The position numbers and the translations under genes are program-made. DNA of 64,000 nucleotides from NCBI GenBank assembly GCA_937927755.1, contig CALBDB010000060.1, positions 1 to 64,000 of the forward strand, given 5' to 3'. This document shows, in pieces, positions 20,227 to 62,028 of this stretch. The notes beneath the pieces are model-generated. The model made no database searches. It saw only the letters and a program-made list of their open reading frames with translations, and had not been told where the DNA came from. Position 1 is the first letter of the stretch, and every line of letters starts with the position of its first letter. This stretch comes from an uncultured Lysobacterales bacterium (GTDB taxonomy: Bacteria; Pseudomonadota; Gammaproteobacteria; Xanthomonadales; SZUA-36).

Positions 20227-20248
20227 GCGGTGCCTCTTTTCGTCAGGG

Positions 20249-20941
20249 TCAGCCCGTTGCGGCAAGCAGTTCCCGGGCAGCATCGACCGCTGTGGCTGCA
20301 TCACGGCAATAGGCATCCGCGCCGACCGCCTGGCCAAACTCTTCGTTGAGCGGGGCGCCGCCGACCAGCACCTTGTACTTGTCCCGGATACCCTTTTCCT
20401 TCATCTGGTCGATGACCACTTTCATGTATGGCATGGTGGTGGTGAGCAAGGCTGACATGCCAAGGAAATCTGCCTGGTGTTCCTCGATTGCCTCGATATA
20501 GGTATCAGCATCGATATTGATTCCGAGATCAATCACCTCGAAACCGGCGCCTTCCATCATCATGCCGACAAGGTTTTTGCCAATGTCGTGGATATCGCCC
20601 TTAACCGTTCCGATCACCATTTTCCCGGCCGGCTTGACGCCTGTTTCAACCAGCAGGGGTTTGAGTTTTGCCATGCCGGCTTTCATGGCATTTGCGGCCA
20701 TCAGAACTTCGGGCACGAAAAGAACACCATCGCGGAAATCGATGCCAACAACAGCCATGCCGCCAACCAGTGCTTCGGTAAGCACCTGTTGCGCGCTCCA
20801 GCCACGGTCGAGAAGAATTTGGGTGCCCTCGGTTATTTCCTCGGCCAAACCGTCGTACAGATCATCGTGCATCTGGTCGACCAGTTCATCATCCGGTAAT
20901 TCCGACAGGATAATTTCTTCGTCATCAAATTGATCAGTCAT
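20249..20941 (-). CDS. Corrinoid protein (MtbC/MttC/MtgC type)
   Basis: A 230-residue cobalamin-binding protein that carries methyl groups between a substrate-specific methyltransferase and a folate methyltransferase. The N-terminal helical B12-binding-2 domain spans about residues 15-100 (GLAEEITEGTQILLDRGW...FVPEVLMAANAM). The Rossmann domain starts at about 105 with GTVKGDIHDIGKNLVG, where Asp116-x-His118-x-x-Gly121 is the lower-ligand motif. Positioned 32 bases after the MttB-type gene and 22 bases before the DUF1638 gene, so a three-gene operon. The third enzyme, a methyl-corrinoid:tetrahydrofolate methyltransferase, is not in the window. Confidence 0.93.
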   Translation of the reverse strand: MTDQFDDEEIILSELPDDELVDQMHDDLYDGLAEEITEGTQILLDRGWSAQQVLTEALVGGMAVVGIDFRDGVLFVPEVLMAANAMKAGMAKLKPLLVETGVKPAGKMVIGTVKGDIHDIGKNLVGMMMEGAGFEVIDLGINIDADTYIEAIEEHQADFLGMSALLTTTMPYMKVVIDQMKEKGIRDKYKVLVGGAPLNEEFGQAVGADAYCRDAATAVDAARELLAATG

Positions 20942-20973
20942 CAGCTTCAGGGCCTCGTTTAAATGTTTTGTTT

Positions 20974-34266: not shown

Positions 34267-34959
34267 CTACGGGTTTAAAAACTCCGCGCGTGTATGTATG
34301 TTCTCCTTGAAGCACCCGCCCAGCGCGGTGGTGCTGGTGGTCGAATTGGAGTCCATGACGCCACGTGATTTGACACAGTAATGTACCGCGTCGATGCTCA
34401 CCGCCACGTCCTCGGTGCCCAGTAAAGCCTGTAATGCCACCAGTATCTGCCTTGTCAGGCGTTCCTGGACCTGCGGGCGCTGCCCGAAAAAGCGTACGAT
34501 CCGGTTGATCTTGGACAAGCCGATGATGGTGTCTTTCGGGATATACGCAACCTTGGCAGAGCCATCAATGGTCACGAAGTGATGCTCACAGGTACTGGTA
34601 AGATCAATGTCGCGGACCTTGACCATTTCGTTTGCGCCCATTTTGTTTTCGATCAGGGATAACTTTGGGAAGTGGCTGTAGTCCAGCCCGGAAAATATCT
34701 CGTGAACATACATTTTCGCAATACGGTGTGGTGTTTCAGCGAGGCTGTCATCGTTCAGATCGAGCCCGAGTGTTTCCAAAACCTGGACCATCTGTTTGCT
34801 TATACGGCGGTATTTTTCCTCTGCACTCAATCCTGTTTCGATCATCGGTGTTTCCAGGCCATGTTCTATCAGGGTGTCGCGCACCACGATGGCTTCCCGG
34901 CTCAGTGTCTCACTGTCGGCCGGCGCATGGATATTCAGTTTGATCGGGTTGGCGCTCAT
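34267..34959 (-). CDS. folE: GTP cyclohydrolase I
   Basis: A 230-residue GTP cyclohydrolase I, the first enzyme of tetrahydrofolate and other reduced-pterin synthesis (GTP to 7,8-dihydroneopterin triphosphate). Zinc and catalytic motifs are intact: [14 protein letters not shown] (Cys, His), [25 protein letters not shown] and [10 protein letters not shown] (second Cys). The start codon overlaps the stop of folX (ATGA at 34956-34959). In Pseudomonas putida and other bacteria one folE copy belongs to a light-induced set together with photolyase and CFA-like genes; a CarH-type operator ahead of folX places this copy in the same kind of circuit. Confidence 0.95.
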
Positions 34960-35384
34960 GATGCTTTCTCCAGAACAGGGTAAGTACTGGCCTGTGAAGC
35001 ATGGTGCTCCAGGGTCAGTGAGACGGAATCCGCGAAACGCAGGGCATGGGGTTTGTCGATCGTGACTTTTGAGAACCTCACGCTCGGGTGTTCGCTGCAG
35101 ATGGCCAGTACATCGGCTACCAGTTTTTCCAGCAGCAGAAACTGCCCCTGTTCCACGTGTTTGATCACCTTTTTCGTGATGACCTTGTAGTTCAGTGCAT
35201 TTTCAATGCTGTCTTGCAGCACTTCATCGTCGATGCTGTAACTGATCTCTATATTGAGCACCACATCCTGCTTCTTTACCCTTTCTTCAGGGTTAAAGCC
35301 GATTAATGTGCGCAGTCGCAAATTCCGGATATTGATCGTCGCGCATGCTGGGGTGTAGTCAGTATGTTGATGCGTAGCTTGCAT
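34956..35384 (-). CDS. folX: Dihydroneopterin triphosphate 2'-epimerase / aldolase-like protein
   Basis: A 142-residue tunnelling-fold protein. [57 protein letters not shown] and [20 protein letters not shown] match FolX better than FolB, since FolX keeps the R-T-x-I-G-x-x-x-E-E start. FolX epimerises dihydroneopterin triphosphate to the monapterin form, which with FolM gives tetrahydromonapterin. It comes before folE in the operon. Start at 35384 (MQATHQ); the 21 codons upstream run into the promoter region and are not conserved. FolM is not in the window. Confidence 0.8.
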
Positions 35385-35429
35385 ATATTTTTCCGAGCCG
35401 TACAGTTGAGATAAGTATTTTATGATAAT

Positions 35430-35446
35430 TGTACAGTTATTATACA
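35430..35446. promoter_or_regulatory. CarH-type operator for folX-folE
   Basis: TGTACA-GTTAT-TATACA: two hexamers whose starts are 11 bases apart, on the same face of the helix. It lies 46-62 bases upstream of the folX start. CarH tetramers bind tandem 11-bp direct repeats with the core nTnnACA, which this fits. The same 17-bp form occurs at five other intergenic positions in this region. Confidence 0.7.
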
Positions 35447-35494
35447 ATAAAAATCAAATACTTTGTAAATATATATTTAAATCTAACTTTTTCA

Positions 35495-35511
35495 TGTACA
35501 ATAAGTGTACA
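35495..35511. promoter_or_regulatory. CarH-type operator inside the gpx promoter
   Basis: TGTACA-ATAAG-TGTACA, 11-bp period. It exactly fills the 17-bp spacer between a possible -35 (TTTTCA, 35489-35494) and -10 (TATTAA, 35512-35517) for the peroxidase gene starting at 35540, so binding would block RNA polymerase. Promoter hexamers are weak matches; the repeat itself is clear. Confidence 0.7.
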
Positions 35512-35539
35512 TATTAACTACTACTAACAGGAATCTACG

Positions 35540-36079
35540 ATGAAAACACTGTATGCGCTTTTAGCCTTGATCACCAGCCTGCCAGTCTTTGCCTGCGAGA
35601 GCCCGCTCCTGGATCAGGATTTCCGCCGGCTCGCCTCAACCGAAGAAGTCAACCTTTGCGAGGCCTATAGTGGAAAAGTCGTGCTGGTCGTAAACACCGC
35701 CTCCAAGTGCGGCAACACACCACAATACGACGGGCTGGAAAAGCTCTATGAACAATATGGAGATGACGGTCTGGTGGTTTTGGGTTTTCCATCCAATGAC
35801 TTTATGGGTCAGGAACCCGGTACCGAAGCCCAGATCGAGGAGTTCTGCCGGCTTACCTATGGCGTTGAATTTCCAATGTTCGAAAAGACAAGCGTCAAAA
35901 AGGATAACGCAGACCCGTTTTTCACGGCGCTTGCCGAGGCTTCCGGCACCCACCCCACCTGGAATTTTCACAAGTTCCTGATCGGCCGGGATGGCGAGCT
36001 GATTTCTGACTTCAGCCCGCGCACGCAACCTTATGACGACAAACTGGTTGCCGCCATCGAGCAGGCATTGTCCAGGTGA
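35540..36079 (+). CDS. Periplasmic glutathione peroxidase-family protein
   Basis: A 179-residue thioredoxin-fold peroxidase of the GPx/BtuE family, with an added signal peptide (residues 1-18, ending SLPVFA), so it acts in the periplasm. Peroxidatic Cys57 sits in VNTASKCGNTPQY, with the partner Gln in GFPSNDFMGQEPG and Trp in PTWNFHKFLIG, so the catalytic triad or tetrad is complete. In the periplasm it would use thioredoxin-like partners, not glutathione. The promoter contains a CarH-type operator. The stop overlaps the leader of the SOUL-protein gene, whose ATG follows 4 bases later, giving a two-gene operon. Confidence 0.88.
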   Translation: MKTLYALLALITSLPVFACESPLLDQDFRRLASTEEVNLCEAYSGKVVLVVNTASKCGNTPQYDGLEKLYEQYGDDGLVVLGFPSNDFMGQEPGTEAQIEEFCRLTYGVEFPMFEKTSVKKDNADPFFTALAEASGTHPTWNFHKFLIGRDGELISDFSPRTQPYDDKLVAAIEQALSR

Positions 36080-36083
36080 CATT

Positions 36084-36701
36084 ATGAAAATCATCTCTCG
36101 TAGCCTGCTGGCTGTTTTCCTGATATTTGCGGCAGAGAACGTCATGGCAGTGGAAGAGGCAGAATACACCGTTTCCGTGAAGCAGGATAATCTCGAGATT
36201 CGAGATTATGCGCCTTCAATTGTGGCGGAAGTCATCGTCTACGGTGAATTCGAAGATGCTTCGAGCGATGCTTTTCGCACCTTGTTCAATTACATTTCGG
36301 GTAAAAATACCGCTCAAAGCAAGATCGCCATGACCGCGCCTGTCTCGCAGAAAGCAGAGCCGGAGAAAATAGCGATGACCGCACCGGTCGGTCAACGGAA
36401 ATCAGGCCAGGGGTGGGCAGTCAGTTTCATGATGCCAGCCTCCTACACGATGGATACCATTCCTGTGCCTGACGACTCTTCCGTCGTACTCAGGGAGATA
36501 CCGGCCTATCGTGCTGCGGCTATTCGCTACTCGGGCTTTTGGAGCGAAAAAGTTTACAAAAAACAACTTTTCATATTGCAGGAGTGGATCAAGTCGAAAA
36601 ACCTGGAGCCCATTGGAGAGCCTGTCTGGGCGCGTTACAATGCGCCCTTGACACCGTGGTTTATGCGCCGGAATGAAATACTGATACCACTAGCCCCCTG
36701 A
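36084..36701 (+). CDS. SOUL family haem-binding protein, exported
   Basis: A 205-residue SOUL/HEBP-domain protein with a signal peptide (1-22, ending ENVMA). SOUL motifs: LEIRDYAPSIVAEVIVYGEFEDA, FNYISGKNTAQSKIAMTAPVSQ, a second IAMTAPVGQ, SFMMPASYTMDTIPVP and RYSGFWSEKVYKK. SOUL proteins bind haem or porphyrins. Tetrapyrroles are photosensitisers that make singlet oxygen, so a periplasmic SOUL protein in an operon with a peroxidase and a light-responsive operator fits photo-oxidative protection. The role is inferred. Confidence 0.85.
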   Translation: MKIISRSLLAVFLIFAAENVMAVEEAEYTVSVKQDNLEIRDYAPSIVAEVIVYGEFEDASSDAFRTLFNYISGKNTAQSKIAMTAPVSQKAEPEKIAMTAPVGQRKSGQGWAVSFMMPASYTMDTIPVPDDSSVVLREIPAYRAAAIRYSGFWSEKVYKKQLFILQEWIKSKNLEPIGEPVWARYNAPLTPWFMRRNEILIPLAP

Positions 36702-36718: not shown

Positions 36719-37960
36719 TCAGGCGGGCTTTTCCGCCACCAGATGTACATCGCTGATCGATCCTTCAATAAACCCGCCCTCGCAATAGCAAAGGTAAAAT
36801 TCCCACATCCAGATAAATTCGTCCGGGTAACCCATGTTGGTGACCTCATGGATTTGGGTGAAAAAATTATGCCGCCAATGATTTAACGTTAACGCGTAGT
36901 CCTGGCCGATGTCCTCGACTTTCGTTACCACCATGTCACTGACCTTCGCGATGGTCTCCATCATCACGGCCAGACTGGGCAGGCAGCTGCCCGGGAAAAT
37001 GTAGCGCTGGATAAAGTCCACATTTTTTTGCGAATAGGCGTATTGTTCATCGGCAATGGTGATCGCCTGGATCAACATGCGCCCACCAGGTTTCAGAAGC
37101 CGGCTGCATTTGTCAAAATAGGTGTCGTATTGATCGCTGCCGATAGCCTCTATCATTTCGATGGAGACAAGCTTGTCATAGTTGCCTTCCAGGTCGCGAT
37201 AGTCTTCAAGCAGCAACTCGATCCTGTCCTGCAGGCCGGCGTCATTGATACGCTGCCAGGCCAATTCATACTGCTGGCGGGAGATGGTTGTCGTGGTGAC
37301 GCGGCAACCATAGTTTTTCGCCGCGTGTATGGCAAAACCGCCCCAGCCGGAACCGATCTCAATGACATGGTCATCCGGTCCGAGCGCCAGCTTCTGACAG
37401 ACCACGTCGAGACGGTGTCTTTGTGCATCCGCCAGGCTTTGATCCGCGTGCTCAAACATGGCCGATGAGTACATCATCGACTCATCCAGCCATAATGCAA
37501 AAAAATCATTACCCAGGTCGTAGTGTGCGGAAATATTGCGTCGCGCACCTTCGCGGGTATTGCGGTTCAACCAGTGAAAAAAGCGCTGCAGCGAACGTGT
37601 CAGCCGGGCGGTTCCTTTTTCCATATCATCCAGTACATGGCGGTTGCGCAGCAGGATACGAACGAGGCTGACCAGGTCTTCGCATTGCCATGAGCCACGC
37701 ATATAGGCCTCACCTGCGCCAACGGAACCGCCAAACGCGATATCGCTGTAAAAGGCCGGATCTGTCACTTCGATTTTACTGCTAAGTTCCGCATGGCTTT
37801 CACCATATGTGGTGCTGAAGCCGCCCTCGACCAATTCAAGCTTGCCGGTTTGCAGGCGCTGCAATTGCTTGAGCACCAGGCGGCGCGCGAAGCTATCCAG
37901 CACACCGGGCCGAGCTTTTGTATTGAGATGGCGTTCAGAGGCCAGGCTGACGGACTTCAT
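36719..37960 (-). CDS. cfa: Cyclopropane-fatty-acyl-phospholipid synthase family methyltransferase
   Basis: A 413-residue SAM-dependent methyltransferase of the CFA synthase family. Membrane-lipid-binding N-terminal domain with GGSVGAGEAYMRGSWQCEDLV, then ISAHYDLGNDFFALWLDESMMYSSAMF, the SAM motif VIEIGSGWGGFAIHAA, SIEMIEAIG and YIFPGSCLPSL. The last gene of the carH1 operon. In the same family UfaM of Rhodobacter methylates a vaccenoyl chain on the way to furan fatty acids, so product may be a cyclopropane, a methyl branch or a furan precursor. The paralogue at 42602-43702 heads the same operon. Confidence 0.9.
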   Translation of the reverse strand: MKSVSLASERHLNTKARPGVLDSFARRLVLKQLQRLQTGKLELVEGGFSTTYGESHAELSSKIEVTDPAFYSDIAFGGSVGAGEAYMRGSWQCEDLVSLVRILLRNRHVLDDMEKGTARLTRSLQRFFHWLNRNTREGARRNISAHYDLGNDFFALWLDESMMYSSAMFEHADQSLADAQRHRLDVVCQKLALGPDDHVIEIGSGWGGFAIHAAKNYGCRVTTTTISRQQYELAWQRINDAGLQDRIELLLEDYRDLEGNYDKLVSIEMIEAIGSDQYDTYFDKCSRLLKPGGRMLIQAITIADEQYAYSQKNVDFIQRYIFPGSCLPSLAVMMETIAKVSDMVVTKVEDIGQDYALTLNHWRHNFFTQIHEVTNMGYPDEFIWMWEFYLCYCEGGFIEGSISDVHLVAEKPA

Positions 37961-37965
37961 ATCTT

Positions 37966-38733
37966 TTATCCTTCTGTCGTAATGTTTTTGGCGGGATGGT
38001 CATACACAGGCACGCGCTTGAGCCATAAGCGAAGTGCCTGCCAGTGAATGGCAAATATTATTTTCAAAGTCATCATGGGGTAGATGAGCAACACGCGGGC
38101 GAGTGACCAGGCACTGATTTCGGTGCGTTTGAACTCCAGCGTGGCATCAAAAATCTTCTGGCCCTGGCGTGCGTTTTCCATATGAACGGTCAAGGCCTCC
38201 TGCGGGCTTGAAAACCGCCAGTCATAGTCAATATCCATTGGCATGAACGGCGAAACGTGCATCTTCTTAACCGGTGAATAACGTTTGTGTGTTGCCTTGC
38301 CCTGGTTCATGGCCTCGCCCAGCACATAGCAATACCTCTCGCCCCAGGGTGTGTTGTTTACCTCTGCAACAATGGTTTCGAGTCGTTGGTCATCCGCATC
38401 AAAGCAATAGTAGAAACTGACGGGATTAAAGCAATATCCAAAATAACTGAGGTTGGTCAGCAAACGTATGGGCCCCTGCGGGCGATCACCTGTTTGACTT
38501 TCCACCAGGTCGCGCACGGCTTGATCAAGGGGCACGGTCGCATCACCAAGGTGATTTTCCCTGCGAAAACGGGCCAGGGCAATTTTGTTTGTCGACCACA
38601 ACCAGCGGTTCTCGAACACCGAGTCCAGTTCCGACAAATCCAGGTACATCATAAACAAACGGTACACAAACTCGTGACCGGTTGGCTGTATGCGCCTGTG
38701 TCTAACCTGTCCTGCGAAAATTGCGCTTTTCAT
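37966..38733 (-). CDS. DUF1365 family protein
   Basis: A 255-residue DUF1365 protein: SAIFAGQVRHRRIQPTGHEF, FGYCFNPVSFYYCFD, EVNNTPWGERYCYV and KKMHVSPFMPMDIDYDW are hallmark motifs. DUF1365 genes almost always accompany a CFA-type methyltransferase and a FAD-dependent amine-oxidase-like protein, as here, and are thought to act in fatty-acyl modification. Start at 38733, overlapping the flavoprotein gene end by 32 bases. A hydrophobic stretch near the C terminus (LLIYPMMTLKIIFAIHWQAL) could associate with the membrane. Confidence 0.9.
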   Translation of the reverse strand: MKSAIFAGQVRHRRIQPTGHEFVYRLFMMYLDLSELDSVFENRWLWSTNKIALARFRRENHLGDATVPLDQAVRDLVESQTGDRPQGPIRLLTNLSYFGYCFNPVSFYYCFDADDQRLETIVAEVNNTPWGERYCYVLGEAMNQGKATHKRYSPVKKMHVSPFMPMDIDYDWRFSSPQEALTVHMENARQGQKIFDATLEFKRTEISAWSLARVLLIYPMMTLKIIFAIHWQALRLWLKRVPVYDHPAKNITTEG

Positions 38734-39976
38734 CTTTGTTGCGCTCCTCGAAATGTTCCAGTGCCGCCAGTGCACTGACCACACCATCCTCGTGGAAGCC
38801 ATTCCGCCAATATGCACCACAATAATAAGTTCGGTAAGCGCCGTTGATTTCAGCGTGACGCTTTTGTGCCTCAATTGATTCGGGGGTAAAAACCGGGTGG
38901 CTGTACTGAATGCGTTTGATTATCTTGTCCGAGCGAATGGCCACGTTGTGATTTAAGGTGACACAAAATGTAACCGGCGCCTTGATGCCCTGCAGGATGT
39001 TCATGTTGTAGCTGACGGCAACGCGTTCCTGCGAATAGGCCGGGATGTGGTAATTCCAGGCGGCCCAGGCACGACGGCTCCTCGGCATCAGGGATTCATC
39101 CGTATGCAATACGGCCTCATTGGGCTGGTAGCGGAATTTTCCGAGTACCTGCTCTTCAGGCAGGCTCGGGTCAGCCAGTAGCTTCAGCGCCTGGTCACCA
39201 TGACAGGCCATGAATACCTGGTCGAAATGCTCGATGTCATGACCGATGACTTTCACTTCGACATGTTCCGGTGATCGCTTTATATACTCAACCGGCGCGT
39301 TTAACCGGATGCGGTCGCGGTGGCCGGCCACCAGTTTCTCCACGTAACGGTTGGAGCCGCCCTTTATGACCCGCCAAACGGGCCTGTCATTGACACTCAA
39401 CATGCCGTGGTTTTGAAAGAACCGGATAAAGAACACGGCAGGCATTTGGCCCATCACTTCCGGCTTGGCCGACCATATCGCTGCACCCATTGGGATGATG
39501 AAATGATCGATGAATTCAGTTGAATACTTTTCTTTGACGAGATAATCGTGCAGCGATATCTGTGCAGCGTTCTCCAGTAAGGCCGGAGCCTCGCGATTGA
39601 AGCGCAATATCTCTCGAATCATCCGGTAAAATGAAGGCCGGAAAATATTCCTGCGCTGTGCGAAAAGACTGTTAATGGTTGAGCCACAGTATTCGAGACC
39701 GGTTTTTTCGTGCTGTACGCTAAAACCCATATCGCTGTCCTGCCAGGCAACACCCAGCTCATCCAGCAGGCGGATGAAGTTCGGGTAAGTGCGCTCGTTG
39801 AAAACGATAAAGCCGGTGTCGATCGCATATTCACTTCCATCGTGTTCGACCGACACGGTATTGGTATGACCACCGATCCTGTCGTCCGCTTCGAATACAG
39901 ATACATCGTGCTCGCGGGCGAGGTGATAGGCTGCGACATTACCGGCTATACCGGTTCCGATGACGGCGATCTTCAT
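38702..39976 (-). CDS. FAD-dependent amine-oxidase-like protein
   Basis: A 424-residue flavoprotein of the amine oxidase/desaturase superfamily. The dinucleotide motif is KIAVIGTGIAGNVAAYHLA at residues 2-20, then DRIGGHTNTVSVEHDG, a substrate-domain GGSNRYVEKLVAGHRDRI and a C-terminal YRTYYCGAYWRNGFHEDGVVSAL FAD motif. With CFA-like methyltransferase and DUF1365 genes it belongs to the acyl-chain-modifying set; in Rhodobacter a flavoprotein of this kind (UfaD) desaturates a methylated acyl chain. Start at 39976, which begins at the Rossmann strand; the upstream open frame lacks conserved sequence. Confidence 0.88.
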   Translation of the reverse strand: MKIAVIGTGIAGNVAAYHLAREHDVSVFEADDRIGGHTNTVSVEHDGSEYAIDTGFIVFNERTYPNFIRLLDELGVAWQDSDMGFSVQHEKTGLEYCGSTINSLFAQRRNIFRPSFYRMIREILRFNREAPALLENAAQISLHDYLVKEKYSTEFIDHFIIPMGAAIWSAKPEVMGQMPAVFFIRFFQNHGMLSVNDRPVWRVIKGGSNRYVEKLVAGHRDRIRLNAPVEYIKRSPEHVEVKVIGHDIEHFDQVFMACHGDQALKLLADPSLPEEQVLGKFRYQPNEAVLHTDESLMPRSRRAWAAWNYHIPAYSQERVAVSYNMNILQGIKAPVTFCVTLNHNVAIRSDKIIKRIQYSHPVFTPESIEAQKRHAEINGAYRTYYCGAYWRNGFHEDGVVSALAALEHFEERNKDEKRNFRRTG

Positions 39977-40076
39977 GTCGATATTCTGTTGGTCTGTGCG
40001 CCGGCCCTGCCGGGTTCGTTTATGAACCGGGTAGCACGCGTGCTTTTGAAGCGCGGGCATGAGCGTTCCGCCATCG

Positions 40077-40601
40077 TTACCATCTTTGCGGCACCAATTG
40101 GATGTCACCGGGGTTGTAACCCACCGACTCCAGCATGTCCACTATGGCCGCGTATTCCGGTGCAGGTATGGCGGGTTTCCTGGCCATGATCCACACGTAA
40201 TCGCGCTTGTTGCGACCGATGACCGTGACGGTATAGTCTTCGTCCAGGTAAATAATCCGGTAGTCAGCCTTGATCGGCCACACGAATTGCATACCCCAGA
40301 CCGCATTAGACTCTTCGCTTACAAACCCGCGTGGCTGATAGGTTTTAAGTTTTCCGCCAAAGCTGTCTTCGTGAAAAGTGAAAGTCGTGGCGATGCTGCC
40401 GTCATCATCCAGCCGATAGGACTCAATGGCATTGTGGGCACCTTTTTCGATAAATGTCGGAATATTGGCAATCACGTACCAGTCACCCATGAAGCGGTCA
40501 ATATCGACGTGATCGACGGTTTTGAGCGGTTCCATGTTGCTACATCCCAGCAAGCTGAACATAAGTAGAAAGGTCGCAATTGTCCGAAATGGAATTTTCA
40601 A
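40077..40601 (-). CDS. Outer-membrane lipocalin (Blc type)
   Basis: A 174-residue bacterial lipocalin with a lipoprotein signal (LLGC, Cys20). The lipocalin signature FMGDWYVIANIPTFIEKG (G-x-W) is at about residues 38-55, followed by the eight-strand barrel (GMQFVWPIKADYRIIYLD, VIGRNKRDYVWIMARKP). It binds lipids or fatty acids in the periplasmic leaflet. Member of the carH1 operon; a second lipocalin is in the carH2 operon. The 100 bases between it and the flavoprotein gene are the only sizeable gap in the operon. Confidence 0.9.
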   Translation of the reverse strand: MKIPFRTIATFLLMFSLLGCSNMEPLKTVDHVDIDRFMGDWYVIANIPTFIEKGAHNAIESYRLDDDGSIATTFTFHEDSFGGKLKTYQPRGFVSEESNAVWGMQFVWPIKADYRIIYLDEDYTVTVIGRNKRDYVWIMARKPAIPAPEYAAIVDMLESVGYNPGDIQLVPQRW

Positions 40602-40619
40602 TGCCAGTTCCCCATTTGC

Positions 40620-41249
40620 TCAAAGCAACTCATAACGCAGACGGCGGCCGCCCTTCGCCTCGGTCTCCAGGGCCAGCCACTCGTTGTTTTCCGAGTACCA
40701 TAACTCAATTTTCATCTCGCCGGCACCCAGCTGGTAACGCAGGGCCGGCTGCATCACGCCACGGACCTCGAGCTGTACCCGTTCCGGTTCGCTCACTTCA
40801 ATATCGAGAACCTCGCCGTTTTGTACATTGATCAGCTGCTCCTGTTGCAGAAAAGCCGGGTTCCAATAGGCGAAACTCATGCTGCAGGAAGGCAGCTCCG
40901 CTTCACCAGCCGTTCCCGTCAGGACAAAACGATCGCCCTGCAATGACCCGCTAACCTTGTAAGGTTTGCCATTGGCGTCCGTTGTCGACTCGATTTCTCT
41001 CAGGCAGTCTCCCGCCCAGATTTCCGTGTTTTCGTGTTCATATCCATACAGCTTTACGAACATCAGACGGTACTCAAAATTGGCCTCGCTCTGCAACAGC
41101 CTTTGGTTATCGAGTTCTTGCAGAATAAAATCGTGGGTGCCAATTTTCTTGTCATCCAGGTACACCTGGAAACGCCATTCCTGTCCGGCGGCTATGACGG
41201 AAGCGGGCAGGCTAAGTAATGCGATCAGCAAAACTATTTTCTTAAACAT
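40620..41249 (-). CDS. DUF6134-like exported protein
   Basis: A 209-residue protein with a signal peptide (1-20, ending SVIA). The mature part (GQEWRFQVYLDDKKIGTHDF, EANFEYRLMFVKLYGYEHENTEIW, CSMSFAYWNPAFLQQEQLIN) resembles the DUF6134 family, seen in light-response and CFA clusters, and is predicted to be an all-beta periplasmic protein. Two Cys (GDCLREI and PSCSMSF) could form a disulphide. Encoded 6 bases after the DUF1295 gene and 18 bases before lipocalin. Function unknown. Confidence 0.65.
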   Translation of the reverse strand: MFKKIVLLIALLSLPASVIAAGQEWRFQVYLDDKKIGTHDFILQELDNQRLLQSEANFEYRLMFVKLYGYEHENTEIWAGDCLREIESTTDANGKPYKVSGSLQGDRFVLTGTAGEAELPSCSMSFAYWNPAFLQQEQLINVQNGEVLDIEVSEPERVQLEVRGVMQPALRYQLGAGEMKIELWYSENNEWLALETEAKGGRRLRYELL

Positions 41250-41255
41250 GGTTTC

Positions 41256-42041
41256 TCAAGCTCCTGTCTCTTTGCGCGGTATACCCGGAAAGAATGCATT
41301 GGTGCGACGAACGTATTGCCGATACTGCGGCCTGCGTCCACTGATATCCTTTTCAAGCAATGCGACGCCCGAGACCTTCAACAGCAGGAATGTCATTAAA
41401 AGGGGTGAAATCACGGTCCACCAGGCACCCGCAGACAATGCAACCAGGTAGAAGCCCCACCAAAGCGTAAAATTGCCAAAATAATTAGGGTGCCGTGTGT
41501 AGCGCCAGAGCCCTTTGTCCAGAACTTTTCCGTCATTGCCAGGGTCACGCCTGAAACGTGAAAGCTGCATATCTCCAACGGCTTCAAATAACACGCCGAT
41601 AACGATCAGGGCACAACCCGCATAATCGAGAAGTCCGATAGCGGATTGGCCACTGATTGCTGCTGCCAACGGCAGGCTGATGACCCAGGCCAGGACCGCC
41701 TGGAGAAGAAATACGATATAGAAACTCTTGTAACGAAAGCCGGGCTCGTTGTTGGCCCGAATTTCCTGATAGCGGTAGTCTTCCGGTTGCCCATGATTTC
41801 GCCATGTGATGTAGGCAGACAGGCGTAACGCCCAGATGGCGACGAGGACTGGAATCAAAAACTCGCGTGGCCCGCTATTTCCATCCATCGCTCCGTAAAC
41901 CAGGGCGACAAGCAGAAACATCAGTGACCACAGTGAATCGACGATGCTTACATCATTTCGTACCAGGCTGATGATCCAGAAAAATACGGCAACCATCAGC
42001 AGGGATGCACCGGACCAGGAAAATGCGACCCAATCAATCAT
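41256..42041 (-). CDS. DUF1295 membrane protein (steroid 5-alpha-reductase-like)
   Basis: A 261-residue polytopic membrane protein with about seven helices. GLWRYTRHPNYFGNFTLWWGFYLVAL is the DUF1295/ICMT-like signature, with the NADPH- and substrate-binding RHPNYFG motif; LLLKVSGVALLEKDISGRRP and YRQYVRRTNAFFPG are the typical end. Such proteins reduce double bonds in lipid or steroid-like substrates. In Rhodobacter a DUF1295 gene belongs to the singlet-oxygen regulon next to CFA-like genes. Member of the carH1 operon, 3 bases from DUF2878. Confidence 0.88.
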   Translation of the reverse strand: MIDWVAFSWSGASLLMVAVFFWIISLVRNDVSIVDSLWSLMFLLVALVYGAMDGNSGPREFLIPVLVAIWALRLSAYITWRNHGQPEDYRYQEIRANNEPGFRYKSFYIVFLLQAVLAWVISLPLAAAISGQSAIGLLDYAGCALIVIGVLFEAVGDMQLSRFRRDPGNDGKVLDKGLWRYTRHPNYFGNFTLWWGFYLVALSAGAWWTVISPLLMTFLLLKVSGVALLEKDISGRRPQYRQYVRRTNAFFPGIPRKETGA

Positions 42042-42044
42042 CGT

Positions 42045-42605
42045 TCACTCCGCTTCCGGAATTTTTTGTACCGGGACCATGGGTGCAGGCTTGCGTTTTC
42101 CATCAAAGTGGCCTGCCGCATAGGTCAGAATCGGCATCACCACTGCCCAGATGACTGCCAGCGCGACCATGCTGGAGCGGTAGTCAACCAGTTCAATGGC
42201 ACCCAGGCGCTGACCAGCCAGGTAGCTCAGCGGACCGAACACCGCACCCATCACGGAGGCCAGCAGCAAGTTGCTCTTTAACCAGCCCATGGAGTAATTC
42301 AAGGTGGTGGAAAACAGCGCCCACATGGCCAGGATCCAGTAAGGGGCGACGCCGGAGAAAAACATACCGGCCGGATAACGCACCCAGCCGCTGCTCACCA
42401 ACAGGCTGTCAAATACCAGGCCCATTACCACGCTCAGAGTGATTAACTGCAACTCGTGAGACGGGTGATCAGCTATCCTGAGGTGCAGTGCAACAACCAG
42501 GCAAACAACCAGGAAACCGATCCACGGCATCCCGTTGGCCGCACTGAGCACACAGGAAAACCAGCCGACCTGGAATGCAATAAAATTGATCAGCGTGCGG
42601 CTCAC
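42045..42605 (-). CDS. DUF2878 membrane protein
   Basis: A 186-residue integral membrane protein with about six helices: [61 protein letters not shown] and [17 protein letters not shown]. These are DUF2878 motifs. The family is found almost only in clusters with CFA-type methyltransferases, DUF1295 and lipocalin. The start overlaps the end of the upstream methyltransferase gene by 4 bases. Function unknown. Confidence 0.85.
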
Positions 42606-43702
42606 TGCTCCCCTGCCCCTGTGCTGTCCGTGCGCCGCTCAAACAGGTAATGACTTACATACCACTCACGTCCGTCGTTGTGAGCAAACAGCTCGGCACA
42701 CGCCATGAAGAATATGCGCCAACGCATAACCCACTTCGCAGCACCTTCGGCGCCATAAGTTGACGCCATGATCTTCATGGCTTCATCCTTGTTGGCGTCC
42801 ATATTGAGCAGCCAGGCATTGGCGGTTTTTTCATAATGCCGGCCACTCCAGCGCCATTGGTCGACCAATTGAAGATCATCCTGGAAGCGCAGTGGAAGGT
42901 CGTCGCTTGGCATGATTCCACCGGAAAAAAAATGCCTGCTCATCCAGTCGCTGGGTCCCTGGTCGATAAATTCATAGGCGCAAGTGCGATGGCAAAATAT
43001 ATGTTTAAAAAATTTACCCTGCGGTCGCAACCAGGTGCTGATCCGGCGATAGAGTTCGCCGTAATTACGCATGTGTTCGAACATTTCGACTGAAACAACA
43101 CGATCAAAGCGCTGCTGTGTATCAAAAACGTTCATATCACAGGTGATCACCGAAATATTTTCCAGGCCACGCTCCCTGGCTTGGCTGGTAATGTATTCAC
43201 GCTGACTGTTGGAATTGGATACGGAAACGACCTTGCAGTCCGGGTAGTGTGCGGCAATCCACAGGCTCAGGGAGCCCCAGCCGCAACCCAGGTCAAGCAC
43301 GTGCATACCGTCTTCAATCCCGGCATGGAGACAGGTGATACGCAGTGCTTCAGCCTCGGCCTGGACGAGGTCCCGGGTGTCATCGTTCCAGTAACAACTG
43401 CTGTACTTGCGGTGGTCACCCATCACCAGGCCAAAAAACTCAGCCGGCACCTCGTAGTGCTGCTCATTGGCAAGTTCAGGCACCGGGGCGATCTCGGCAA
43501 TGTTCATTCCTGCGACAAATGATGAAAGTTCCCGGCTGGCCCGCTCCACATCATCGGCATTGATGTCCTCAAGGCGCCGACGGTTGAGGCGGTGGATGCC
43601 GGCACGTATTACGCGGTCAGGCACCAGGCCCAATTCGGCCCAGCCGATAGCTCCTGGATTCCTTCTGGAATCATTTTTTGCCAAATTCGTTTTTTGCTGC
43701 AT
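42602..43702 (-). CDS. SAM-dependent methyltransferase, CFA-synthase-like (short form)
   Basis: A 366-residue methyltransferase related to CFA synthase but with a shorter N-terminal domain ([20 protein letters not shown]). SAM motif [42 protein letters not shown] aligns with the YD-G-DF-x4-L-YS region of CFA synthases; [18 protein letters not shown] follows. It has the eukaryote-like coclaurine N-methyltransferase look of this subgroup. It is the second gene of the carH1 operon, 14 bases after carH1. It probably modifies a lipid or small amine; the substrate is unknown. Confidence 0.85.
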
Positions 43703-43716
43703 TCCCTGATTCCTTT

Positions 43717-44643
43717 CTACTCAACCGGTATCGCATTGCTCAGTTTCGCGATACCTGAATTCAAGTCCGTTCCCAGCACAATTACGCCGGCCCGTTTAAC
43801 CATATCGTGGACTTGCGCAGACGCATGACCACCAAGAAATACCGGTACCGGTGACTGCCTGGTCAGCCCGGGCAGGGCCTGGTCAAGCAGTTCGGTCCCC
43901 GGCTGTAAGTACCCGGACAGTATAATGGCCTTGCTGCCGGTTTTTCTGGCCACATCAGGCAAGTCGTCCAATGGCATGTCAGCACCCAGCAGGATTGTTT
44001 GGTACCCGGCAGCATTGGCTGTCAGGGCAAAAAGAAGCAGGCCCGTTTCATGCCGGTCGCCCGGCAGGCAGGAAAGCAGCAGTTTCGGACCCTTTCCAGA
44101 CCGGACGCGATGATGAAACCTTGCACCCAGTTTGTTGCGCAGGTAAAAGCCGAAGAAATGCTCTTCAGCAATGCTGCCTTGATCTTTTGCCCATCTGCGG
44201 CCAAGTTCGGCCAAAAGCGCCATTAGGAGCTTCTCCGTCACCGTGTCTATCGGATAGAGCGCAAGCGCCTCTCCGTAGACGTCCTCGAGTGCTGCTTCAT
44301 TAAATTGAATGACGGCGGCTGTCATACGGTCGATATAGCGTTTCCATGTAGCGTTAATCACCTCGTCGGACGTAATGAACTCCGAATTCTCAGCATCCAG
44401 CTGGGCCTTGATCTGGCCGATGCGCATCCCGCGGTCCAACAGGCCTACGACGCGTGTAATCAAATCGATGTGGGCCTGTGTATACAACCGGTGGCCACTG
44501 GCTTTGCGGACCGGTTCGAACAGGCCGTAACGGCGTTCCCAGGCACGCAATGTAATCGCATTAACATCGGTAAGATCAGATACCGTGCGAATAGGATAAA
44601 GAGCAGTCTCTGGCGATTCGGTCTTTTTTGTGCTGTTACTCAT
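43717..44643 (-). CDS. carH: CarH/LitR-type B12 photoreceptor repressor 1
   Basis: A 308-residue light-responsive repressor. MerR-type winged helix at about residues 17-82 ([33 protein letters not shown]), helical B12-binding-2 domain about 95-180, and a B12-binding Rossmann domain about 186-305. The photoreceptor signatures are complete: Trp151-x9-Glu161-His162 (the cap that senses cleavage of the 5'-deoxyadenosyl group) and Asp196-x-His198-x2-Gly201 (cobalamin ligand motif). In known CarH proteins the adenosylcobalamin-bound tetramer represses in the dark and falls apart in light. It heads a nine-gene operon to 36719 and has a CarH-type operator in its own promoter, so it is likely autoregulated. 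Paralogue at 50115-51044. Confidence 0.9.
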
Positions 44644-44705
44644 TTTCCTACCCGTATTTACAATATGTTGGTAACTAAGGTTGGGGTTAATTTGATATTA
44701 AAAAT

Positions 44706-44722
44706 TATACTAAAAGTGTACA
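44706..44722. promoter_or_regulatory. CarH-type operator for the carH1 operon
   Basis: TATACT-AAAAG-TGTACA, 11-bp period, 63-79 bases upstream of the carH1 start. On the minus strand it overlaps a consensus -10 hexamer TATAAT (44709-44704), so occupancy would cover the core promoter of the nine-gene operon. Confidence 0.7.
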
Positions 44723-44765
44723 TAAATGGACTTTTGCATCCGCTCTCCATCTTCCTGTTTGCCTC

Positions 44766-44821: not shown

Positions 44822-45385
44822 TCAGGGGCAGTTGCTCTGCGGTGGATACGGAAGGATCACTTCGGAGATCACGTGGATGATACCGTTGTCCGCGGGCACG
44901 TCGACTGCCAGCAGGTTTGCGTCGCGACCTATGGCATCAGTAATTACCAGGGATCCGGGCGTGCGGGTGACAAAGTCCCCGGACAGCATGCGGATTTCGT
45001 CTAGTGGAAGCACTTCGGCTGCATCTTTACGACCTTTCGCGGCATGGTAGGTCAGTACGTCTGCGACATAGTCAGGCTGAAGAGCCTGAAGCTCTAATAC
45101 GTCGGCATAACAGAACAGCGGCAGGATGTCATTAAGACGACCAAAGGCTTCATCGGTAGGCGCGAACAACGTGCGCTGGCCTCTGCCATCAAGGTAGGCA
45201 ACGATATCAGGGTACAGGCCCGCCGCAAGTAACAAGATTGAAAACTCTTCAGTCTCGGCATTGATGGCGGCGGCGACATCAACGATCGTGGTCTGGTCTT
45301 CGGGCTTCTTGGCAAAACCTACTGTAGATACAATAAGTGATGCGGCAGCTACCATTCCGATAAGTGACTTTCTATAAATACTCAT
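44822..45385 (-). CDS. Secreted fasciclin-domain protein
   Basis: A 187-residue exported protein: signal peptide 1-24 (GMVAAASLIVSTVGFA) and one FAS1 domain from about residue 33 to 180. FAS1 motifs are present: EFSILLLAAGLYPDIVAYLDG (H1 region), RTLFAPTDEAFGRLND, VADVLTYHAAKGRKD (YH motif) and NGIIHVISEVILP (H2 end). FAS1 domains mediate adhesion and, in bacteria, biofilm or surface contacts. Two Cys residues lie at FCYAD and at the extreme C terminus. The promoter carries a CarH-type operator, so expression may be light-dependent. A remnant of a second fasciclin gene is at 52528-52713. Confidence 0.9.
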   Translation of the reverse strand: MSIYRKSLIGMVAAASLIVSTVGFAKKPEDQTTIVDVAAAINAETEEFSILLLAAGLYPDIVAYLDGRGQRTLFAPTDEAFGRLNDILPLFCYADVLELQALQPDYVADVLTYHAAKGRKDAAEVLPLDEIRMLSGDFVTRTPGSLVITDAIGRDANLLAVDVPADNGIIHVISEVILPYPPQSNCP

Positions 45386-45465: not shown

Positions 45466-45482
45466 TGTACAAAACTTATACA
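45466..45482. promoter_or_regulatory. CarH-type operator inside the fasciclin promoter
   Basis: TGTACA-AAACT-TATACA, 11-bp period. On the minus strand it fills the 17-bp spacer between a perfect -35 (TTGACA, 45489-45484) and a -10-like AATAAT (45466-45461). This is the clearest promoter-operator arrangement of the six sites. Confidence 0.75.
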
Positions 45483-45754: not shown

Positions 45755-48009
<2,255 letters not shown>

Positions 48010-48103
48010 TCCAGATAGAAAAGCTCTCGGGGCCATTGCATGATGGCACATGAGCGCATCGGCAATGAGTTTCGAGGGTCTTTCGTAATTCATCGAAAAA
48101 CGG

Positions 48104-48135
48104 ACGGCGGCGTAAAGTGCGCCGCCGTTCTTTTT
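48104..48135 (+). terminator. Rho-independent terminator after katG
   Basis: ACGGCGGCG (48104-48112), seven-base loop, CGCCGCCGT (48120-48128), then TC and five T. Lies 95 bases after the katG stop and 19 bases before the chelatase-like gene. Confidence 0.85.
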
Positions 48136-48153
48136 ACGCACGGAAAATAACGC

Positions 48154-48984
48154 TTGCAAAGAATAATACTTGTAGACAATGGATCACGGCGTGCCGATGC
48201 TGTCTTGAACTTACATCGACTGGCCAGGCAGTTGAGTGAAAGGTCCGGTCAAAAGATCCATGCGGTGCCGCTTCAACATGCCCATAAAATTCCGGCCGAA
48301 GCCTTTGGTGATGCACTTGACGGCAGGCGTGTGGCCACATTCCCGGAATACGTCGAAGAGGCATTGGCCAGTGGTGTTGATGAGTTTGTCATCATTCCAC
48401 TGTTTTTTGGTAACAGCCGGGCCATTACTTCGTTTATCCCGGACACGCTGGAGGCCCTCCAAAAAACACATGGGAAATTCAGCTGGTCGGTTGCAGACGA
48501 GCTGTGCCCCTTGCCCGGGGGAGAGCCGAAACTGGCAAAGCTTCTCTATGCAAACCTCGCAATGCTGGCGGATACAACGCTGACCGACCTGGACTGCATC
48601 GTGTTGGTCGACCACGGGTCTCCATCCAAAAAAGTTACGGATGTAAGGTTAAAGCTGGCTGAACAGCTAACACCCTATCTGCCCGAAGGTACGCCCCTGC
48701 TGCAGGCAGTAATGGAGCGAAGGGAAGGGCGTGAATACGATTTTAACGGCCCATTGTTAAAAGAGTTGCTGGAGAAACTGGCCCTCGAACATGAGGTTTT
48801 GAACGTCGCGATCTCGATGCTTTTTCTTTCTCCCGGCCGCCACGCAGGAAAGGGCGGAGACATTGAGGAGATATGCAGTAACGTGATGCGAAACCATCCG
48901 GGCTTGAGTACCCACATCTCTCCCCTGGTAGGGGATAATCCGTTGCTCATTGATTTATTGAATGACCGTATGCGGGGAAAGTGA
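48154..48984 (+). CDS. CbiX/SirB-type tetrapyrrole chelatase-like protein
   Basis: A 276-residue two-domain protein of the sirohydrochlorin cobalt/ferrochelatase (CbiX) family. The C-terminal half keeps both metal-binding histidines: VLVDHGSPS at about residue 150 and FLSPGRHAGKGGDI. The N-terminal half has lost them: VDNGSR has Asn for His, and PLFFGNSRAITSFIP lacks the second. So one functional site is expected, in the second half. The start is TTG at 48154: an in-frame stop lies just before it and no ATG fits, and no clear ribosome site is seen. Chelatases of this family insert cobalt (cobalamin) or iron (sirohaem). Neighbourhood with two B12 photoreceptors suggests cobalt or haem traffic but does not prove it. 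Confidence 0.75.
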   Translation: MQRIILVDNGSRRADAVLNLHRLARQLSERSGQKIHAVPLQHAHKIPAEAFGDALDGRRVATFPEYVEEALASGVDEFVIIPLFFGNSRAITSFIPDTLEALQKTHGKFSWSVADELCPLPGGEPKLAKLLYANLAMLADTTLTDLDCIVLVDHGSPSKKVTDVRLKLAEQLTPYLPEGTPLLQAVMERREGREYDFNGPLLKELLEKLALEHEVLNVAISMLFLSPGRHAGKGGDIEEICSNVMRNHPGLSTHISPLVGDNPLLIDLLNDRMRGK

Positions 48985-49030: not shown

Positions 49031-49579
49031 TTAACCGTTTTTGTCCTGGCTGACAAAAATCAATTCATCGGTTTTGTAACCTAGTGATTTTGCCAATTTT
49101 ACAAGCCGATCTGTTACAGAAGGATCCAGGCCGGGTGTCCGTGACAGAATCCACAAATAATCCTTGTCCGGTCCCGTCACCAATGACCACTGGTAGGCGT
49201 CCTTGTCGAGCGCAATAATGTTATACGATGCGTAAAAAGGCCCGAAGAAAGAGACCTTTAGCTGGCCAATGGTCGAATCACCTACAAAGTAGGCTTTACC
49301 TTCGGCTTCCTTCCACGTTTCTTTGTCCGTGTTGTAGCCCCGGTTCAGTACACGCACCCCGCCATCGTCCTTTAAGCGATACTCGGCCGTTACGTCGGAC
49401 AGGCCACGTTCAAACCTGTGATCCATACGGGCAATCTCGTACCAGGTGCCGAGATACCTGCCCAGTTCAAAATCCTTAACAGGCTGTGTACCTTCGGGTA
49501 TGCCTGTGCAGCCGGCCAGTCCAGTAGCTATCAAGGCAACCAAAAGCCAGGTGAGTTTTGTTTGAACCCTGCTTTTCAT
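49031..49579 (-). CDS. Outer-membrane lipocalin (second copy)
   Basis: A 182-residue lipocalin with lipoprotein signal (LAGC, Cys24). Signature LGRYLGTWYEIARMDHRFERG, then VTAEYRLKDDGGVRVLNRGY, KVSFFGPFYASYNIIALD and DYLWILSRTPGLD, a full Blc-type barrel. Its ATG directly follows the stop of the upstream unknown gene (TAAATG), so it is the last gene of the carH2 operon. It differs clearly from the lipocalin at 40077-40601, so the two are separate paralogues, both placed under a carH gene. Confidence 0.9.
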   Translation of the reverse strand: MKSRVQTKLTWLLVALIATGLAGCTGIPEGTQPVKDFELGRYLGTWYEIARMDHRFERGLSDVTAEYRLKDDGGVRVLNRGYNTDKETWKEAEGKAYFVGDSTIGQLKVSFFGPFYASYNIIALDKDAYQWSLVTGPDKDYLWILSRTPGLDPSVTDRLVKLAKSLGYKTDELIFVSQDKNG

Positions 49580-50110
49580 TTACATATACCTCGAGTCATA
49601 GGCCCAGTGCAAAATTGCCTGGCGTTGCCTTGGCCGGCAAAGCAGATCGCCCTTGATGCAATTATTACGGAGCTGGGAAATATGCCGGCTCATTGCTTTC
49701 CAGCGACGTATTTGCCGCTCATCATCCTCGTGGCGGCGACCCATGTAATACCTGCAATACCACTGGAACCAGCCGCGTGGGTCGTCCTCGTGTATCCAGC
49801 CCTTTTGTCGCCAGTAGGAAAGCGGTTTGGATGCCTTCACCTGGAAGAAATTCAGATCAGGGTCGTGTCTTTCAGGGCTCAACTTGGCATTGTGAAACCA
49901 ATTATCGGGAAATTCCGCAGTGCAATCGGTCATGTACTTACCGCCGAACACTCCCATGGACAGCATCTGCGCAGGCGTGAGCTGTGGCCTGAAGTCCGGG
50001 GAGAAATCCTGTCCGGGCTTACATACCAGTTCGTAGCTGTAGCCCTTCTGCATACGGTCATTAACAACGACTGTCTTAATCACGTGCCTGGTACCAATCT
50101 GTCTGCGCAT
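49580..50110 (-). CDS. Conserved protein of unknown function in the carH2 operon
   Basis: A 176-residue cytoplasmic protein without signal or membrane segment. I recognise no named domain. It is rich in Trp, Tyr and Arg: PAQMLSMGVFGGKYM, DDPRGWFQWYCRYYMGRRH, ERQIRRWKAMSRHISQLRNN and CRPRQRQAILHWAYDSR. Five Cys residues are spread along the chain (VCKPG, TDCTAE, WYCRYY, NNCIKG, LLCRPRQ). Dense aromatic and basic residues suggest binding of a nucleotide, flavin or nucleic acid, which is a guess. Start ATG at 50110, 4 bases after the carH2 stop, so co-translated. I believe homologues occur beside light-response genes elsewhere, but that needs a search. Confidence 0.7.
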   Translation of the reverse strand: MRRQIGTRHVIKTVVVNDRMQKGYSYELVCKPGQDFSPDFRPQLTPAQMLSMGVFGGKYMTDCTAEFPDNWFHNAKLSPERHDPDLNFFQVKASKPLSYWRQKGWIHEDDPRGWFQWYCRYYMGRRHEDDERQIRRWKAMSRHISQLRNNCIKGDLLCRPRQRQAILHWAYDSRYM

Positions 50111-50114
50111 CGGA

Positions 50115-51044
50115 CTACTGTCTGAAATTGAGTGCGGCGGCGATCTGCTTGATGCCCGTGTCAATGTCTTTGCCGATCAATTGCACGCCCGACTTTTTAA
50201 GGCGGTCAAAATTGTTGGCTGCGATACCCCCGCCCAGGAATACCGGAACCGAAACATCACTGACAAGGCGGGGCAATTGTTCCGTAATCACGTTTTCTTC
50301 CGGCTCAATAACACCTGACAGCACCAGGGCATCGCTTTTTGTCTTGTTTACCGCAGCTGGAAGTTCTTCCAGTGGCATATTGGCACCCAGTAACACAGTT
50401 TGAAAACCATGATCACAGGCATCCAGTCCGAATAGCAGCAAGCCGATCTCGTGCAGCTCATCGGGCAAACAGGCCAGTAGCAGCCTGGGGCCGACCTGGT
50501 CCCGTGACCGGTGGTGGAATCGTGCGCCGAGTTTGTTGCGAAGATAAAAGCCAAAAAAATGCTCTTCCGCCACGCTGCCCTGTTTGCTGATCCAGCGTTC
50601 GCCAAGTTCCTTGAGCAGCGGGGTCAGAAGTTTGTCGGTTACAATCCGCACCGGATAAAACGACAGCGCTTCGCCGTAGATGCGCTCGAGTGAAGACTCA
50701 TCAAAACGGATAATGGCAGCTATCATGCCGTTGATATAGCGTTGCCAGTGACCCTGTTTTTCGTCGCCCGTTTCTTTGCCAAGGTCTGCGCCTGATAACG
50801 TCTCGGCATTTATTTGGCCGATACGCATACCCCTGTCCAGCAGGCCTACCACGCGGTTGATCAGATCGATGTGCTCCTGCGTATATAACCTGTGCCCACT
50901 GGATTTTCTAATTGGTTCTATCAGGCCATAACGTGTTTCCCATGCCCTGAGGGTTATTGCATTGACACCGGTTAACTCCGAGACCGTCCTGATCGGGAAC
51001 AGGCCTGGCGTGTGTGTGGCTGATTGTTTTTCGGGTTCTTTCAT
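50115..51044 (-). CDS. carH: CarH/LitR-type B12 photoreceptor repressor 2
   Basis: A 309-residue paralogue of the regulator at 43717-44643, alike along its whole length with no gap across the cobalamin-binding signatures. MerR-type winged helix ([20 protein letters not shown]), helical domain and B12-binding Rossmann domain. Trp151-x9-Glu161-His162 and Glu196-x-His198-x2-Gly201 are both intact, so it should bind adenosylcobalamin and respond to light. The linker after the DNA-binding domain (residues 80-98) is the least conserved part. It leads a three-gene operon with an unknown protein and a lipocalin. A CarH-type operator lies 82-98 bases upstream. Confidence 0.9.
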   Translation of the reverse strand: MKEPEKQSATHTPGLFPIRTVSELTGVNAITLRAWETRYGLIEPIRKSSGHRLYTQEHIDLINRVVGLLDRGMRIGQINAETLSGADLGKETGDEKQGHWQRYINGMIAAIIRFDESSLERIYGEALSFYPVRIVTDKLLTPLLKELGERWISKQGSVAEEHFFGFYLRNKLGARFHHRSRDQVGPRLLLACLPDELHEIGLLLFGLDACDHGFQTVLLGANMPLEELPAAVNKTKSDALVLSGVIEPEENVITEQLPRLVSDVSVPVFLGGGIAANNFDRLKKSGVQLIGKDIDTGIKQIAAALNFRQ

Positions 51045-51125: not shown

Positions 51126-51142
51126 TATACTAATTCTATACA
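51126..51142. promoter_or_regulatory. CarH-type operator for the carH2 operon
   Basis: TATACT-AATTC-TATACA, 11-bp period. Minus-strand promoter elements near it are weak (TTCAAT at 51148-51143 as a possible -35; TATAAT at 51112-51107 as a possible -10). Confidence 0.65.
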
Positions 51143-51269: not shown

Positions 51270-51286
51270 TATACAAAATCTGTACA
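51270..51286. promoter_or_regulatory. CarH-type operator for the DUF4397 gene
   Basis: TATACA-AAATC-TGTACA, 11-bp period, 148-164 bases upstream of the DUF4397 start. A -10-like TACAAT (51283-51288) overlaps its right half, and TTGTAA (51262-51267) precedes it. Confidence 0.65.
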
Positions 51287-61895: not shown

Positions 61896-61921
61896 TCAGA
61901 GCCTCCGTATTGAAAATGAAT

Positions 61922-62020: not shown

Positions 62021-62028
62021 AGTTCGTA

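Follow-up and report, generated by a model that had tools for sequence, protein, structure and literature searches.

A predicted light-induced, B12-controlled furan fatty acid operon in an uncultured Lysobacterales bacterium

Fish, plants and foods contain dimethyl furan fatty acids, antioxidants about whose biological sources and enzymes little is known. Bacterial furan fatty acid synthesis was first published in 2020, for Rhodobacter (Cereibacter) sphaeroides and Rhodopseudomonas palustris (Lemke et al. 2020, PMC7380195). In that pathway, cis-vaccenoyl chains are methylated by UfaM and then desaturated by UfaD; the DUF1365 protein UfaO introduces an oxygen derived from O2 to give the 9M5 furan acid, and a second methyl is added by FufM, giving 9D5. 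The 64,000-nucleotide stretch analysed here, from an uncultured Lysobacterales bacterium (contig CALBDB010000060.1; hereafter the window), carries at 36719-44643 an operon headed by a regulator gene, carH1, in which counterparts of all four enzymes can be recognized. Based on sequence comparison, it is likely, with a probability of roughly 80%, that this operon directs light-induced, B12-controlled furan fatty acid synthesis. In R. palustris, the genes ufaD, ufaO and ufaM are likewise adjacent, and a DUF1295 gene lies next to fufM. However, fufM is there located far from ufaD-ufaO-ufaM, whereas in the window all four genes share one operon; moreover, the Rhodobacter genes are controlled by RpoE-ChrR, whereas the window operon has CarH, plus DUF2878, DUF6134 and a lipocalin.

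Control of such genes by light has also been described. In the LitR regulons of Pseudomonas putida and P. mendocina (PplR and PmlR; PMC9758184), a MerR/LitR protein, a flavin adenine dinucleotide (FAD) oxidoreductase and ufaM are similarly encoded in one light-controlled operon, ufaM is induced 25-33 fold by light in P. mendocina, folE and folX belong to the regulon, and the operators contain TGTAYA half-sites. On the other hand, the Pseudomonas LitR proteins are of class II: part of the B12-binding region is missing, they are thought unable to bind B12 (PMC9758184), repression is relieved by a LOV protein, and the half-site spacing is 18 bp, whereas in the window the CarH is of class I, its B12 motifs are intact and the spacing is 11 bp. 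In addition, the window has fufM, and the Pseudomonas paper names none in its operon, a comparison made by description and not by sequence. The CarH proteins of Thermus, Bacillus megaterium and Myxococcus (PMC8156234) resemble that of the window in domain order, the W-x9-EH motif and the tandem 11-bp nAnnTnnACAn repeat; however, the best studied of them control carotenoid genes, whereas the predicted target in the window is furan fatty acid synthesis. Finally, in the Vibrio cholerae blue-light regulon (MerR, ChrR; PMC5241685), the genes responding to the light include VC1122, annotated as a cyclopropane fatty acid (CFA) gene, and that of a MerR/LitR-type regulator, but an ordinary CFA product was assumed there, with no furan assignment and no B12-type CarH. 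Since LitR-light control of ufaM has already been published for the class II proteins of Pseudomonas, the new part is a B12-type CarH predicted to drive a complete dimethyl-furan operon. A literature search found no description of a single operon with fufM, of its DUF1295 and DUF2878 partners, or of a B12-type CarH over furan acids, although papers beyond the library searched may differ.

Nine minus-strand genes form one tight unit at 36719-44643. In the order of transcription, these are carH1 (43717-44643), encoding a predicted class I LitR/CarH-type B12 photoreceptor repressor; fufM (42602-43702), whose product matches the CMAS profile (1.9e-40) and is predicted to methylate 9M5 furan fatty acyl chains to the dimethyl furan; genes for a DUF2878 membrane protein (42045-42605; PF11086, 7e-44), a DUF1295 membrane protein (41256-42041; PF06966, 9e-74), an exported DUF6134 protein with a signal-peptide-like N-terminus (40620-41249; PF19630, 4.5e-44) and a Blc-type lipocalin lipoprotein, a probable lipid carrier (40077-40601; PF08212, 8e-36, with the Blc subfamily model NF007786 below its cut-off); ufaD (38702-39976), for a predicted FAD-dependent methylated-fatty-acyl desaturase; ufaO (37966-38733), for a DUF1365 protein (1.4e-87) predicted to be the oxygenase that closes the furan ring; and ufaM (36719-37960), for a predicted cis-vaccenoyl-phospholipid methyltransferase (CMAS, 1.3e-85). 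The successive junctions measure +14, -4, +3, +6, +18, approximately +100, -32 and +5 nt; the only wide one is the gap of approximately 100 nt between the lipocalin gene and ufaD, and all others fall between a 32-nt overlap and an 18-nt gap. The start codons of ufaD (ATG 39976) and ufaO (ATG 38733) were set from conserved N-termini. Between the upstream fasciclin gene and the carH1 promoter lies a terminator-like hairpin (44796-44772). A sequence-only reading of this DNA had proposed a light-induced acyl-chain modification pathway after carH1, and every gene that it named is present on the minus strand; it overlooked DUF6134, and it did not name UfaO, the oxygenase with which the DUF1365 protein is identified here by sequence. 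Although the CMAS profile matches both of its CFA-family methyltransferases, these are distinct enzymes, one of UfaM type and one of FufM type. In single-sequence structure predictions, UfaO and DUF6134 had a predicted local distance difference test (pLDDT) score of 39.

CarH1 is composed of a MerR helix-turn-helix domain (MerR_1), a B12-binding_2 domain and a B12-binding domain, the last of which scores 29.5 bits, just under the Pfam cut-off of 32.1. Its top PDB matches are Thermus thermophilus CarH, and the alignment extends through the B12 region. The cobalamin motifs W-x9-EH (W151..E161-H162) and GDRHETG (E/D-x-H-x-x-G) are intact and are conserved in 12 copies of the protein, and a PduO-type adenosyltransferase for adenosylcobalamin (AdoCbl) is encoded in the genome. 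The published CarH operator repeat is the 11-bp nAnnTnnACAn (PMC8156234), and operators were scanned as TGTAYA-N6-GTAYA, which can be read as two tandem units of this repeat. Only exact matches were counted; a one-mismatch pattern gave about as many genome matches as its reversed control. The window contains seven exact matches against 0.03 expected, that is, seven of the ten in the 3.4 Mb genome: one belongs to carH1, two to a second carH gene (carH2), one to the fasciclin gene, and the remainder fall at two places between folX-folE and the glutathione peroxidase-SOUL genes, where one palindromic box is counted on both strands. The carH1 operator (44702-44723, minus strand; TGTACACTTTTAGTATA core, two tandem 11-bp units) lies over a TATAAT -10-like box, 63 nt upstream of carH1. 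In loci of the same family, 17 matches were found, most of them less than 400 nt from carH, while the loci of CarH-less families in the same order, 328 kb in all, gave none. The Pseudomonas-type LitR box, TRTACA-N12-TGTAYA, was also tried and rejected, as it has a single mismatched match in the window and no excess.

The intact B12 motifs of CarH1 and the CarH-type operators back the proposal that the operon is under B12-light control. It is quite unlikely that the furan pathway is correctly recognized while CarH1 is not its light switch, either sensing the B12 level without light or leaving induction to a singlet-oxygen route. CarH repressors are indeed gated by AdoCbl as well as by light, and CarH1 misses the NCBIfam cut-off considered below; however, W-x9-EH and H198 are intact, the operator type and position fit, and ufaM in the P. 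mendocina LitR operon responds to light itself (PMC9758184). Moreover, the search of the genome gave no ChrR-type protein next to a sigma factor: no ChrR adjoins the operon, and the genome's single Cupin_7 protein is a tandem cupin beside which no sigma factor was seen.

For the enzymes, reference genomes of R. palustris (L008, G001) and Cereibacter johrii (L052, G002) were fetched with R. palustris RubisCO as bait and profile-searched for CMAS and DUF1365. The R. palustris genome encodes exactly three CMAS proteins of full length; one of these, UfaM, adjoins DUF1365. The other two, L094 and L088, are 28% and 37% identical to Cereibacter UfaM; these values fit those published for RPA0924 (FufM, 26%) and RPA3082 (38%), and the assignment of L094 as FufM is therefore sound. 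The upstream methyltransferase of the window is 49% identical to this R. palustris FufM over 331 aa, compared with 28% to E. coli CFA synthase and 38% to coclaurine N-methyltransferase. In a tree, it shares a set of 23 rows with its R. palustris counterpart (support 100/99), and the bacterial FufMs, including that of R. palustris, split from the plant N-methyltransferases at 100/100. With the upstream methyltransferase assigned as FufM, the expected end product is a dimethyl furan acid.

That only a monomethyl furan acid is made, the FufM-like protein being a coclaurine-type small-molecule N-methyltransferase, is quite improbable. This alternative was raised by the PDB search, in which the closest solved structures are plant coclaurine and pavine N-methyltransferases (5e-74), and by the 38% identity given above; it is opposed by the greater identity to R. 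palustris FufM, a 9M5 methylator, by the 100/100 split and by the near-perfect co-occurrence of FufM with UfaO described below, and an alkaloid-type role was ruled out on the comparison with R. palustris and the tree. Furthermore, the Arabidopsis protein LIME1, which is located on lipid droplets, is 38% identical to FufM and has been proposed as a plant FufM (PMC10940516), so the branch includes candidate lipid methylases. The sequence-only reading had named alignment solely with small-molecule N-methyltransferases as evidence against itself; UfaM shows nothing of the kind, and FufM, whose PDB matches are plant N-methyltransferases, is nevertheless closer to R. palustris FufM and separated from the plant branch.

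The remaining three enzymes also match their R. palustris counterparts. The downstream methyltransferase is 40% identical to UfaM of both R. palustris and Cereibacter, and in a tree of 81 rows the UfaMs, including that of the window, form one side of a 100/99 branch without CFA synthases. At positions 139, 236, 240 and 266 of the E. coli CFA synthase, E. coli Cfa has C, G, H and H, and the UfaMs checked have S (once A), E, A and Q. The window protein carries C139S, G236E, H240A and H266Q, as do both reference UfaMs; the CFA-type residues C139 and H240 are thus not found in it. The FAD protein is 43% identical to R. palustris UfaD and 39% identical to that of C. johrii and contains the GxGxxG FAD motif, and the DUF1365 protein is 33% and 31% identical to the respective UfaOs. 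In Cereibacter, rpoE and a ChrR-cupin gene stand next to ufaD-ufaO, after which come genes for MFS, DUF3833 and a 245-aa SDR; this layout matches RSP1091-1087. It has also been reported that UfaM of Halomonas, another gammaproteobacterium, yields a furan fatty acid intermediate in E. coli (PMC12089945). The furan (or related) fatty acid product suggested earlier is accordingly supported, at the level of orthology, by counterparts of UfaM, UfaD, UfaO and FufM. A different methyl-branched or cyclopropane lipid, made by an ordinary CFA synthase with the flavoprotein and DUF1365 acting elsewhere, is quite improbable even though both methyltransferases match CMAS and the solved structures closest to the downstream one are those of CFA synthases, because the UfaM clade and active-site residues rule out a plain CFA operon, UfaD and UfaO orthologs adjoin this methyltransferase, and the genome has a separate true CFA synthase (C37) 56% identical to E. 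coli Cfa.

The distribution of these genes was surveyed in 61 genomes, namely the organism's own and those of its relatives. UfaO/DUF1365 is present in 40 of them, and FufM in 37 of these 40 compared with 1 of the 21 without UfaO (p 5.5e-12); two of the three UfaO genomes without FufM have broken contigs. The order ufaD-ufaO-ufaM-DUF2878-DUF1295-fufM(-lipocalin) is found through the families of the order, DUF2878 is kept in the operon across the order, and a fatty acid desaturase gene often directly precedes ufaD in related loci. FufM was found in 16 of 199 genomes sampled across the phylum. In another class of the phylum (G076, L184, 3059-10894), the nine-gene order is identical, with a W-x9-EH CarH first and a CarH box present. 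Because the core order, ufaD-ufaO-ufaM together with DUF2878, DUF1295 and fufM, recurs in nearly all 40 ufaO loci and the nine-gene order recurs in another class, the grouping of these genes is not due to chance. Among the relatives, CarH is restricted to the family of the window organism (18 of 61 genomes); within this family it accompanies UfaO in 16 of 22 genomes, compared with 2 of 15 others (p 6e-4), and it adjoins the operon in each of the 13 genomes of the family in which both are present and the contig is long enough to tell. The identical order in another class suggests that the CarH-furan cassette moved as a unit, with old common descent as the alternative. A whole dimethyl pathway is predicted in one operon, which has been kept throughout an order and, in the family of the window organism, is linked to a B12 photoreceptor.

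The same enzymes are also found next to rpoE-chrR, in C. johrii (L119), in L137 from the same taxonomic order, in L187 and L189 from other families, and in Shinella (L161) and on Rhizobium plasmids. With sister operons beside rpoE-chrR, the gene maps show CarH standing where ChrR stands elsewhere, as the sequence-only reading had proposed, and the same enzymes have been put under two light-stress sensors. A cluster on Acinetobacter plasmids comprises lipocalin, desaturase, ufaD, ufaO, ufaM, DUF1295 and fufM genes with a photolyase gene nearby; one such plasmid, NZ_CP090068 (L160, 2223-9029), is from pig manure.

Taken together, a mechanism may be proposed in which we infer the light response, the enzyme activities and the lipid product. 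In the dark, CarH1 bound to AdoCbl, and probably CarH2 as well, would sit on the tandem 11-bp boxes of the promoter and repress its own operon; in light, the cobalt-carbon bond would be broken, and CarH would be released, permitting transcription. UfaM would then methylate the cis-vaccenoyl chains of phospholipids, UfaD would desaturate the methylated product, UfaO would add the O2-derived oxygen with closure of the furan ring (9M5), and FufM would add the second methyl to give 9D5; the furan chains would scavenge singlet oxygen in the membrane. Several observations weigh against this interpretation. CarH1 scores 133 bits against the 400 demanded by the NCBIfam CarH equivalog model NF052513; this cut-off is a naming threshold and not a mechanistic feature, and since it is missed, carH1 is filed as class I LitR/CarH-type and not as an equivalog of the proteins of that model. 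Only two 11-bp units are clear at the carH1 promoter, compared with three or four in characterized CarH operators, and the lipocalin-ufaD gap is roomy enough for an internal promoter. In addition, the within-family association of CarH with ufaO is significant but modest, and the identity of UfaO to its reference is only approximately 33%. The operon offers a ready test of B12-gated control of a membrane antioxidant, and its four accessory gene families are new candidates.

These accessory proteins, DUF1295, DUF2878, DUF6134 and the lipocalin, probably serve substrate access, membrane anchoring, or the movement of furan lipids or their oxidation products. The window DUF1295 protein is 32% identical to L094:410-1318, an open reading frame that overlaps the start of R. 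palustris fufM; the DUF1295 gene immediately before fufM in that organism is taken as RPA0923. A more specific and doubtful idea is that the four proteins extend the pathway, letting FufM act at the membrane and carrying dimethyl-furan phospholipids or oxidized products across the envelope to the outer membrane. If so, the CarH-furan cassette would be a transferable, B12-gated outer-membrane sunscreen, and the bacteria bearing it would be among the sources from which fish and other aquatic life obtain their dimethyl furan acids. Two further relationships were considered and rejected for want of a profile match: that of DUF6134 to Rhodobacter DUF3833, and that of DUF2878 to the gene following fufM in Rhizobium.

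The second class I CarH paralog, carH2 (50115-51044, minus strand), has the same operators, with boxes upstream at 51126-51142 (minus strand) and 51270-51286, and would belong to the same regulon but in a separate operon. Its operon partners, also on the minus strand, are genes for a conserved unnamed protein (49580-50128) and a second lipocalin (49031-49579). This unnamed protein, of 182 aa and encoded directly after carH2 in the 49031-51044 region, has no Pfam family, and 94 of its positions are at least 97% identical in 11 copies; in several relatives, its gene directly follows ufaM, often with SOUL next. On the other side of the furan operon, at 34267-36701, are folX-folE (minus strand) and the divergent glutathione peroxidase and SOUL heme-binding genes (plus strand). 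These share the two CarH boxes at 35430-35511, and the same light regulon is therefore likely. The box of the fasciclin gene (gene, 44822-45385; box, 45466-45482, minus strand) overlaps a TTGACA-17-AATAAT promoter, and next to this gene, at 45784-48984, are genes for a KatG-type catalase-peroxidase with a signal-peptide-like N-terminus and for a CbiX chelatase.

Three exact boxes lie in the genome outside the window, two of them between fasciclin-like and thioredoxin genes (L113, G000:C154, 172-341). A one-mismatch box at L113 7223 precedes a CIA30-SDR pair, homologs of which occur near carH in some relatives. Elsewhere in the window, the minus-strand genes at 19633-22503 encode an MttB-type methyltransferase, a corrinoid protein and DUF1638, a B12-dependent methyl transfer set with no visible link to the operon. 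Finally, two tandem paralogs at 60051-63885 (minus strand) are 54% identical over their N-terminal 336 aa, with near-identical first 68 residues, and contain a membrane segment and TPR repeats.

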